From positions 3,006,501 to 3,070,500 of the forward strand of contig NZ_CP022121.1 in assembly GCF_002224645.1 (NCBI RefSeq): DNA of 64,000 nucleotides, given 5' to 3'. Of this stretch, positions 56,107 to 60,293 are shown piece by piece. How positions within the stretch are numbered: position 1 is the first letter of the stretch; the number at the start of each line of letters is the position of its first letter. The translations under genes were made by a program, and so were the position numbers. This DNA comes from Dehalobacterium formicoaceticum (lineage in GTDB: Bacteria > Bacillota > Dehalobacteriia > Dehalobacteriales > Dehalobacteriaceae). The notes beneath the pieces are model-generated. The model was not told the DNA's origin. It ran no database searches and saw nothing but the letters and a program-made list of their open reading frames with translations.

Positions 56107-57042
56107 CTAAAACATATTTCGTTTAATTAGAAACATAACACTTAAAACCGAAAGGACTAATGAAATGCTCAACACAATAAAAAAACCGTGAGGTGAATTT
56201 TGAAAAGGGATTTGCACATTCATTCCGAAAAAACTGGCTACCATAGTGGGAAGTGCCAGTACAATGGTAATTGACGCTAAAAACTTCATGACAATATTTA
56301 AGTTATTTGAAATAATAGAGGCAAATGCATCCATCATCCCGCTTAAAATGTTGCTATAGATATCAGCCATTTCAATAGCCTGTTTGTTTTCTATAATAAC
56401 ATCTTCCAATAAATCTTGGTCTTCTTCGTACATTTTTAAGGTTTTACCTCTCAGCAATTTTTCCATTACTTTTTCATTGGACCTTAAAGAGGTGGTAAAA
56501 TAAACCAAGCTTTTCTCTAAATCCAACAAACGGATTAGTTCCTTGTTCCTCATGGATTTTTGAAGTTCATACTCAATTTCGTCGGTTTTTTTGTTAATTT
56601 CCCTCAGATATTTTAGGTAAAGGTTTGCAGTTTTTTGCATGATTTGGAAGACAAACCTTGTTTTCTTAAAAGTTGCCAGTCCTTTAATTTTTCCCTGGGC
56701 GAATTCTTTTAATATGTCAATAGGCTGCAAACAGATGGTAACAAAATAATCTTCAGTCAATACAATTCCTAAGGGGAAGGTGTCATAAATCAGATCCTTC
56801 TTGTGAAACGCCGGGACATTTATAATAATCAATACCTGATTATTGTCTTCAATTTCTACACGGGGCAGTTCTTCATCGTCCAAAGGATACTTCAAAAAAT
56901 CATAATATATTCCTGTGTTTTGAGCCACCGTCTGCAATTCTTCTTCTGATGGATTAACCAGATTGATCCAAGAACCTTTTTCCATATCATTAGTTGATAA
57001 ACACACAATATTATCGTTTCTGCTTTGAAATATTGTTAACAT
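56107..57042 (-). CDS. corA: CorA-family magnesium transporter
   Basis: A 311-residue CorA/MIT family channel with a large cytoplasmic domain (about 1-245), two C-terminal helices and the GMN selectivity motif in FFGMNVQIPF near residue 278. It moves Mg2+ (or related ions) into the cell. Its ribosome site AGGAGG and start codon are locked in a perfect 14-bp inverted repeat, preceded by a short leader gene, so translation is probably regulated. Confidence 0.92.
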   Translation of the reverse strand: MLTIFQSRNDNIVCLSTNDMEKGSWINLVNPSEEELQTVAQNTGIYYDFLKYPLDDEELPRVEIEDNNQVLIIINVPAFHKKDLIYDTFPLGIVLTEDYFVTICLQPIDILKEFAQGKIKGLATFKKTRFVFQIMQKTANLYLKYLREINKKTDEIEYELQKSMRNKELIRLLDLEKSLVYFTTSLRSNEKVMEKLLRGKTLKMYEEDQDLLEDVIIENKQAIEMADIYSNILSGMMDAFASIISNNLNIVMKFLASITIVLALPTMVASFFGMNVQIPFQNSPHGFFIVLSISLVLSVLSVMFLIKRNMF

Positions 57043-57105
57043 TATTAACCTCCTTTACTGAGGAGGTTAATAATACAGGGTGATCTGTATGGTTAACCTC
57101 CTATT
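57041..57105 (-). promoter_or_regulatory. Mutually exclusive hairpins controlling corA translation
   Basis: On the minus strand the anti-Shine-Dalgarno TTAACCTCCT (57061-57070) can pair with an upstream AGGAGGTTAA (57093-57102, closing an inner ATACAG/CTGTAT stem) or with the true ribosome site downstream (57041-57054 with 57061-57074, 14 bp). Only one can form. The first frees corA, the second blocks it. Confidence 0.7.
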
Positions 57106-57150
57106 CCTAGCATAAAATATACATCTACTATCCGCAGGGTCACTGTCCAT
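57067..57150 (-). CDS. Leader peptide of corA, 27 residues
   Basis: A short gene starting at the ATG at 57150, seven bases after a perfect GGAGG. The peptide begins MDSDPADSR (three Asp and one Pro in the first seven) and continues with Arg-rich and then aromatic residues. Its stop codon (57067-57069) lies inside the anti-Shine-Dalgarno segment 25 bases before corA. Acidic, proline-containing starts are known from MgtL, where low Mg2+ makes the ribosome fall apart. That link is inference. Confidence 0.6.
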   Translation of the reverse strand: MDSDPADSRCIFYARNRRLTIQITLYY

Positions 57151-57327: not shown

Positions 57328-58269
57328 TTATTTTGAACTCTTTGCCACAACACGGGGTGACGGACGATAAGAACTAATACCCATATCTTTTTTTGTTTCT
57401 TTGCCATCCTTAGTTATAATTACCCATGAATGAACGCTGATTCCCGGAGAACCTTCAAATATTTCCTTTTCCGTTCCCTCTGGAAGTAAAGGATCATTTA
57501 TCTTCTCCGTCCAACTGGGTGTCTTTTTTAAAACCTGATGCACCCATCTGACTTTGGGTGCGGGAACAGAGCCGTATAATGCCAAATAAAGCGTACCTTC
57601 CTGGTTCTCAGCCCAAATCAAGATAGGTGCACCGGTAGTATTCTTAAATTTAAAGTCTTTGGTACCATAAGATATTGTAGCATCCTGGCCTGGGGGCACA
57701 TAAGGTACAGTCATGGAATGGGGTAATCTTTCCACAACCTCTTGATCTGCCGAAACTACCACATTATAAAGTACAGAGGCAATTTTACAAACTCCCCCGC
57801 CAATGGTAGAAACAATTTGTCCGTCACTATACATTGGGCCCGGTTTAAAACCATTTTCCACTGTACGCCTGCCAATTCTCTGATTTAAAGAAAACACCTC
57901 TCCAGGCTTAACCACAGCACCGGCCAAATAATCCGCGGCCAGGGAAATATTATCACGTTCATGAAGGATAGGATCAGGTAATGTGGCTTGATAACTTGAT
58001 AGCCTTACAGGAGTATTATTATCCCTCTTTGCCTGAAGGAATTTAGGATTATTTTCCCATATCAACGTCGATTCGTTAATTTTCTTTTTTTCTCTTTTTT
58101 CTCTACTTGATTCGTCAACTTCCTTTTTTTCTATCTGTTTTGGTACTTCCGTCTGTTTTGGTACTTCCGTCTTTTTGGTGTTATCCGGTTTCTTTACCGG
58201 GGCACAACCACTTAGCACTAAAGAAACTATAATTAAAAAACTGAAAAAACTGAAATATAACTTTTTCAT
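57328..58269 (-). CDS. VanW-family lipoprotein
   Basis: The 313-residue protein has a lipoprotein signal (SLVLSGCAP, lipid on Cys), a charged Lys/Glu linker, and a VanW domain with FSLNQRIGRRT, TIGGGVCKIASVLYN and PHSMTVPYVPPGQDATISYG. VanW domains are of unknown function and are linked to the envelope. I start it at the ATG at 58269 eight bases after GGGGG. A related VanW gene and a deacetylase lie upstream. No vanHAX genes are present, so this is not evidence of vancomycin resistance. Confidence 0.88.
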   Translation of the reverse strand: MKKLYFSFFSFLIIVSLVLSGCAPVKKPDNTKKTEVPKQTEVPKQIEKKEVDESSREKREKKKINESTLIWENNPKFLQAKRDNNTPVRLSSYQATLPDPILHERDNISLAADYLAGAVVKPGEVFSLNQRIGRRTVENGFKPGPMYSDGQIVSTIGGGVCKIASVLYNVVVSADQEVVERLPHSMTVPYVPPGQDATISYGTKDFKFKNTTGAPILIWAENQEGTLYLALYGSVPAPKVRWVHQVLKKTPSWTEKINDPLLPEGTEKEIFEGSPGISVHSWVIITKDGKETKKDMGISSYRPSPRVVAKSSK

Positions 58270-58377
58270 AGGCAATACCCCCTTAAATTGAACATTTCAA
58301 ATTTATATTTCCCCTTTCATAACCCGATGAATCCGGAAAAATTTCTCTAAAAAATATTTAGCGATAAAAAAGCAAGA

Positions 58378-59441: not shown

Positions 59442-60293
59442 TTACCGGCCTTTTTCAATTATTTCAGGCAATGCATCATAGTAGTTTTTACCCAGTTCTT
59501 TAATTTTTGTTTCACCGTCCGGATATTCTATCGTAATCCAAGACTTGACAACTAAACCGTCCTGGCCTGTGACAAGCAGCCTTTCTGTGCCTTTTCCCAG
59601 GTTTTCGTTATACCGATAAACTATCCAATACTTAATTCTTTTTAATTCTTGATGGTGCCATGTTACCTGGGGCGGGATTTCTTGTCCATAGAATGCCATA
59701 TATAAGGTATTTCCTACAGTTTCCGCCCAAATAACAATAGGCCCTCCGGTATTGTTTAAAAAACGTATATCTTTTACCCCATAGCTTACGGTGGCATCCT
59801 GTCCTGGCGGGACATATGGAACGGTCATGGAATGATTATAACGTTCATATACCGGTAAATTGCTTAAAATAGCAAGATTATATAATACGGAAGCAATTTT
59901 ACACACGCCCCCACCGGTAGATGTGACAATTTTTGTCCCTTTGTACATAGGTCCTGACTGATAGCCGTTAGCAGATGTGTAAGGGCCGATTTCCCTATTT
60001 TGAGAAAAAACTTTGCCGTCTGGAATCATTGTTCCTGCCAACTTGTCTGCTGCAAGACCGACATTGTTCATTTCTCCGGGCAGAGGCTCTTTTAAAGTGG
60101 CCTGATATTTTGCCATTAAGACCATGTTTTTATTTTCACTAATCATTTGGCGAAATTGGGGGGCATCATTCCAAGGAAGGGGTTGACTATAGATTATGCC
60201 TTGTCTCCAATAATCGGGGGGATAGTCATCCGGACTGGTAATTTCCGCAGAACTAGACCTCATTACAGGGTAAGCGTCAAATACTACCCACAT
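59442..60293 (-). pseudogene. VanW-family gene, main part, cut by IS66
   Basis: The frame encodes a VanW domain (FSQNREIGPYTS, TSTGGGVCKIASVLYN, HSMTVPYVPPGQDATVSYG) close to the other VanW protein. Its first nine residues (MWVVFDAYP) are read from the terminal repeat of IS66, so the true N terminus is missing. The lost part, a signal peptide, lies beyond the element at 62787-62857. A shortened protein without export signal could still be made from the ATG in the repeat. Confidence 0.88.
60262..60269. repeat. Target-site duplication, left copy
   Basis: ATTACAGG stands directly before the left end of IS66 and again directly after the right end (62787-62794). Eight bases is the IS66 norm. Confidence 0.95.

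Follow-up and report, generated by a model that had tools for sequence, protein, structure and literature searches.

Sensing of Mg2+ through the instability of translating ribosomes is known so far from a few enteric leaders. In MgtL, the leader peptide of enteric mgtA, an acidic-proline start (EPDP) is followed by basic residues, and low Mg2+ leads to early ribosome loss, according to PMC11282234, which cites Chadani 2017. The MgtQ peptide of Salmonella mgtB, which has 8 aa and is encoded inside an operon, carries Asp2 and Glu5 along with proline near its start, and its RNA forms either stems 1:2 and 3:4, with the target ribosome-binding site (RBS) hidden in 3:4, or stem 2:3 (PMC8092293). The enteric corA gene has a leader ORF as well, CorL, with a UUG start and few acidic or proline residues; it acts through Rho, with Mg2+-dependent expression (PMC11552253). 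The gamma-proteobacterial corA motif is a structured RNA (PMC6429828). In Mycobacterium tuberculosis, an M-box is found together with an upstream ORF, and the M-box-controlled uORF2 of mycobacteria keeps its N-terminus, with Pro invariant at position 7 (PMC12810186); this uORF2 may belong to the kind of Mg2+ leader described below. A full-text search of the literature, covering few subscription papers and no bioRxiv preprints, returned Mg2+ leader peptides in enterics only and no description of the Bacillota family treated here. The preliminary description of this locus knew of no such design for a corA of the Clostridia.

The window analyzed here is a stretch of 64,000 nucleotides from Dehalobacterium formicoaceticum. 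It holds a corA gene and, in the leader of this Mg2+ transporter gene, a short ORF with a Shine-Dalgarno (SD) sequence of its own:

57162-57156, minus strand: SD of the leader, GGAGGTG, read from the sequence
57150-57067, minus strand: leader ORF of 27 codons and a stop, MDSDPADSRCIFYARNRRLTIQITLYY, from the ORF and its translation, with an N-terminus kept in relatives
57136..57147, minus strand: leader codons 2-5, Asp-Ser-Asp-Pro, the acidic-proline motif, from conservation in relatives
57042-56107, minus strand: corA, a CorA-family Mg2+ transporter of 311 aa (Pfam PF01544, E=6e-58; CorA matches in the PDB)

The corA product scores 197 bits against a PF01544 cut-off of 27 in Pfam. The 27-codon leader and its strong ribosome site are present as first described, and the gap from the leader stop to the corA start is 24 nt rather than the 25 bases originally given. 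As in MgtL and MgtQ, acidic and proline residues stand in the first leader codons and are conserved. An Rfam search of the window at E<=1 gave no family, the M-box included, apart from one meaningless chance match, and the corA leader of the window contains no intrinsic terminator. Like CorL, the window leader is an ORF that precedes corA; with its ATG start, different peptide, different RNA fold and lack of an Rfam match, it is neither a CorL nor the gamma-proteobacterial corA motif. Further upstream of corA, on the minus strand, are two mutually similar long ORFs (57328-58275 and 59442-60293) that look VanW-like by eye.

The conservation of the leader was followed in corA loci gathered from public genome contigs and a further genome set, 157 in all after removal of redundancy and mostly from Bacillota. 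With a leader taken as an SD-preceded ORF starting M[DE]xxP no more than 300 nt from corA, a motif defined after seeing examples, 67 of the 157 upstream regions have one, whereas dinucleotide shuffles gave 1.46 on average and never more than 4. Upstream of corA such ORFs occur at 1.44 per kb and in the remaining DNA of these loci at 0.023 per kb, a 60-fold difference. Within the window's class, nearly all genomes with this corA carry an M[DE]xxP leader, and the starts include MDGDPSK, MEGDPGS, MDGSPSSDYH and MEADPKY. It is the peptide that is kept: the leaders use every one of the four Pro codons, either Asp codon and either ATG or GTG as start, and the proline is at residue 5 in 54 leaders, residue 4 in 8 and residue 6 in 5, so that lengths change by whole codons. 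Residues 2-6 hold a mean of 1.8 acidic residues; past residue 8, acidic residues make up 4% and basic ones about 20%. In Bacillaceae the corA leaders have the form M..S.xNEPEPEYSGE or NEPDP, again with synonymous changes, and in eight of them (L047, L051, L054, L058, L067, L081, L021 and L024) NEPEP or NEPDP (or AEPEP) at about residues 7-11 replaces M-D-x-D-P. The check on relatives that had been suggested for the leader thus came out in its favor, and the leader is almost certainly real and conserved. A recognizable leader is absent in 90 of the 157 corA loci. These include the second corA paralogue in the genome of the window (L001 / L245, C1:1141964), which is without a leader of this type, as well as L007 and L014, which are close relatives. 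L007, L014 and the likewise close corA relatives L010-L013 (Desulfosporosinus) have neither a recognizable leader nor an M-box, which may reflect loss or another control.

The RNA between the leader SD and the corA start can be divided into four segments:

57159-57147, minus strand: region 1, leader SD and start, GGTGATTGTATGG, paired with 57092-57079 in the minimum-energy fold
57102-57093, minus strand: region 2a, the decoy, AGGAGGTTAA, a 10-nt perfect complement of anti-SD positions 57070-57061
57092-57079, minus strand: region 2b, CCATACAGATCACC, the complement of region 1
57078-57061, minus strand: region 3, CTGTATTATTAACCTCCT, with the anti-SD and overlapping the leader stop codon, from the sequence and a shuffle test
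57074-57061, minus strand: the anti-SD, ATTATTAACCTCCT, a 14-nt perfect complement of 57054-57041
57054-57041, minus strand: region 4, corA SD plus the A and T of the start codon, forming a 14-bp perfect blocking stem with 57074-57061

Both partners of the anti-SD, the decoy and the corA SD with its start, are as the preliminary description gave them, and 0/5000 shuffles of the leader part produced either match. The decoy hairpin is lengthened by ATACAG (57090-57085) in region 2b, which pairs with CTGTAT (57078-57073), and the whole hairpin (57102-57085 with 57078-57061) is an alternative to the minimum-energy fold. The latter holds 1:2, the leader SD and start with the late leader, together with 3:4, the anti-SD with the corA SD. 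The 1:2 helix was missing from the preliminary description, and its decoy-only design therefore becomes a four-segment one. In terms of predicted folding, the region is a four-segment attenuator, 1:2 and 3:4 versus 2:3, with the target RBS within 3:4 as in MgtQ; the pairings are present in the window, and swap tests over the 67 leader loci bear on them as well. Unlike the enterobacterial MgtQ, the window leader stands at the head of the corA transcript and extends as far as the anti-SD, and its region 2 includes a copy of the SD that can act as a decoy.

Because the late part of the leader cannot be aligned between species, covariation could not be read from a plain DNA alignment, and the pairing of each locus's own segment was instead compared with its pairing to segments from other loci. 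For 1:2, the own late leader gave a mean of -20.9 kcal/mol versus -15.9 for foreign ones (p=2e-11), and the tests gave p=2e-6 for 3:4 and p=7e-5 for 2:3; the loci are related by descent, and these values therefore overstate independence. The bases between SD and start pair as CG, AT, TA or GC depending on the species, which means all Watson-Crick types occur. The stems are thus kept as matched pairings, as the check on relatives had asked. The window leader RNA also folds more strongly than its shuffles (z-score -4.9), and this strong structure, together with the M-box riboswitches found nearby in relatives, would fit an RNA that itself sensed Mg2+ or another ligand, with the ORF incidental. 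Such a riboswitch-like reading is improbable, given that conservation is at the level of the peptide, with synonymous codons, whole-codon length changes and GTG or ATG starts, and that the helix sequences vary freely between species with no Rfam match.

The output of the leader is not always an SD hairpin. In L017, L018 and L123, segment pair 3:4 is an intrinsic terminator instead, and the decoy in the leader is complementary to the terminator's 5' arm. These cases favor an MgtL-like transcriptional control, in which leader translation would expose or hide a Rho site or terminator and the SD pairing would be secondary. However, terminator-like hairpins are found in just 4 of the 67 leaders and the window has none, and control of this kind as the main mode is distinctly unlikely.

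Fold prediction also shows how strongly the window RNA leans to one side. At equilibrium the decoy stem has P about 0 and only the OFF fold is seen. With segment 1 covered, the corA SD is open just 0.02 and the decoy stem is still not reached; with a ribosome on the last leader codons (26-28), access to the SD rises from 0.02 to 0.69-0.73. Thermodynamic switching in the window is thus not supported: without a ribosome near the end of the leader, the RNA stays mostly in the OFF fold. Given this equilibrium, the predicted ON state must be kinetic, arising co-transcriptionally while the corA SD has yet to be made; otherwise, on the same folding model, a ribosome positioned on the leader stop codon may open corA. 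Across loci, covering segment 1 increased predicted corA SD access in 30 and decreased it in 5 (p=9e-7), and covering the mid-leader had a weaker effect (p=0.003), with both p-values again overstating independence through common descent. The original proposal that a decoy stem opens corA at low Mg2+ therefore stands only in part: the decoy pairing exists and is matched within loci, but it is not populated at equilibrium.

The rise in access at codons 26-28 is also the main point in favor of translational coupling, in which a ribosome at the leader stop would cover the anti-SD and open the corA SD, making full translation of the leader the ON condition. The overlap of the leader stop codon with the anti-SD and the short stop-to-corA gaps in many relatives fit this as well. 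However, combined with a Mg2+-sensitive early motif, coupling would yield less importer under Mg2+ shortage, opposite to what homeostasis calls for, and it needs neither the decoy nor the 1:2 helix, yet both are conserved above swapped controls. Coupling is therefore unlikely, if somewhat less so than transcriptional control.

The reading preferred here is that the translated leader probably serves as a Mg2+-responsive gauge for corA in the manner of MgtL and MgtQ, acting mainly by sequestration of the SD, and it is likely, by analogy and with marginally more confidence, that it does so by ribosome drop-off on early codons. The proposed Mg2+-sensitive, ribosome-destabilizing stretch is Asp-Ser-Asp-Pro at codons 2-5, modeled on MgtQ (PMC8092293) and MgtL (PMC11282234). 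By the same models, Met-Asp-Ser-Asp-Pro would make ribosomes fall off or stall at low Mg2+. Segment 1 is the leader SD and start, segment 2 the late leader and decoy, segment 3 the anti-SD, which overlaps the leader stop, and segment 4 the corA SD. When Mg2+ is ample, ribosomes would run through segment 2, 3:4 would pair and corA translation would be blocked. Without ribosomes, 1:2 and 3:4 would both form, and corA would again be OFF. When Mg2+ is low, ribosomes would linger in segment 1 or abort there again and again, so that segment 2 is free to capture segment 3 during transcription; with 2:3 formed, segment 4 would be open and corA translated. We infer this direction of control. With the leader start codon lost, corA would stay OFF under the four-segment design and would be ON if the decoy were simply left free.

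The best reading by analogy is that the leader works like MgtL and MgtQ, a likeness drawn from features rather than from descent. With MgtL it shares its place as a short ORF before a Mg2+ transporter gene, an acidic-proline start followed by basic residues, and alternative RNA folds, and EPDP closely resembles the NEPEP and NEPDP of the Bacillaceae. It differs from MgtL in phylum and transporter families, in acting mainly through SD sequestration and in a motif that is usually M-D/E-x-D/G-P. With MgtQ it has in common the acidic and proline residues near the start of a short ORF, besides the arrangement of stems. The earlier idea of an MgtL-like leader switching the corA ribosome site holds up in its acidic-proline start, in its matched stems and in the recurrence of the leader on unrelated Mg2+ transporters; what it missed was the fourth segment.

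The M-box (RF00380) governs the same transporter genes, and in relatives, including the closest (L004 and L005), M-box aptamers recognized by Rfam stand directly upstream of the leader. As an explanation for the window it was rejected, with no aptamer found there. In the 157 corA loci, 17 have both a leader and a complete M-box, 50 a leader only, 8 an M-box only and 82 neither. Where both are present, a separate terminator stands between the M-box and the leader SD, and the two are therefore tandem modules, the leader being the second, past the M-box terminator. The series of M-box, M-box terminator and leader attenuator upstream of corA is seen in L004, L005, L008, L009, L121 and L126. The 17 leader-bearing loci with an M-box directly upstream might suggest that the leader is merely the riboswitch's expression platform. 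This reading has next to no probability and was rejected, since the M-box has its own terminator ahead of the leader SD and 50 leader loci, the window included, have no M-box. Because two relatives of the same family have an M-box, we infer that it was likely lost in the window's lineage.

The same leader is found on other Mg2+ importers. A sequence-only search for an SD followed by ATG-GA-N4-GNN-CC in 300 Bacillota genomes gave 24 matches: 5 corA leaders, 3 leaders starting MDAGP... before another gene, and a remainder that was mostly chance-like. By Pfam, the gene behind the MDAGP... leaders encodes a protein with MgtE_N and CBS domains; next to it downstream is an Nramp gene, whose best solved relative by far is EleNRMT (7qia) at 413 bits, with MntH next at 103 bits. 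NRMT genes of the EleNRMT kind are Mg2+ importers under M-box control (PMC4072509). The leader precedes 13 of 22 non-redundant MgtE_N/CBS-NRMT operons (0.42 in shuffles) and 13 of 40 full-length mgtE genes (1.06 in shuffles). The operons that have it include L211, L213, L215, L221, L223, L229, L237 and L239, among others, often behind an M-box. The window genome's own mgtE has one too:

L244:1017-1085 (C1, about 1250316): leader of mgtE, MDSDPGGRNKKLNKKQLPGALI, starting MDSDPGGR

Its region contains a decoy CCAGGAG, an anti-SD CAATAACTCCTGG and an SD AGGAGTTATTG, unrelated in sequence and equivalent to the corA design, and Rfam gave no M-box at this leader. Judged on these elements, mgtE is a second instance of the same leader design in the D. 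formicoaceticum genome.

Nothing points to Mg2+ as the cue more strongly than the use of one leader type by three importer families, and the leader very probably serves Mg2+ control. A short ORF with conserved Asp and Pro could also point to attenuation by Asp or Pro starvation, and the 1:2/3:4 versus 2:3 logic is that of trp-type attenuators. Here, however, the cue is not an amino acid and the output is mostly translational. Near their start the leaders contain a single Pro codon and between one and three acidic codons, with no runs, and their targets are three unrelated Mg2+ transporter families. Amino-acid attenuation, which is very improbable, was rejected on codon content and targets.

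Taken more broadly, and with somewhat less confidence than the gauge at corA itself, it is reasonably likely that Bacillota possess a widespread Mg2+ regulon based on nascent-peptide sensing, in which one class of M-(D/E)-x-(D/G)-P leaders would control CorA, MgtE and MgtE_N/CBS-NRMT importers. Its translational and terminator outputs would be interchangeable, and it would often follow an M-box and form a second Mg2+ checkpoint, with the M-box replaced in lineages like this one. The same signature on three unrelated Bacillota importer families suggests a general sensing principle, one either found twice or very old. The leader type would pair naturally with the M-box riboswitch or take its place, and would account for a set of unannotated small ORFs. 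It may also offer a simple test bed for how nascent acidic-proline peptides read cellular Mg2+.
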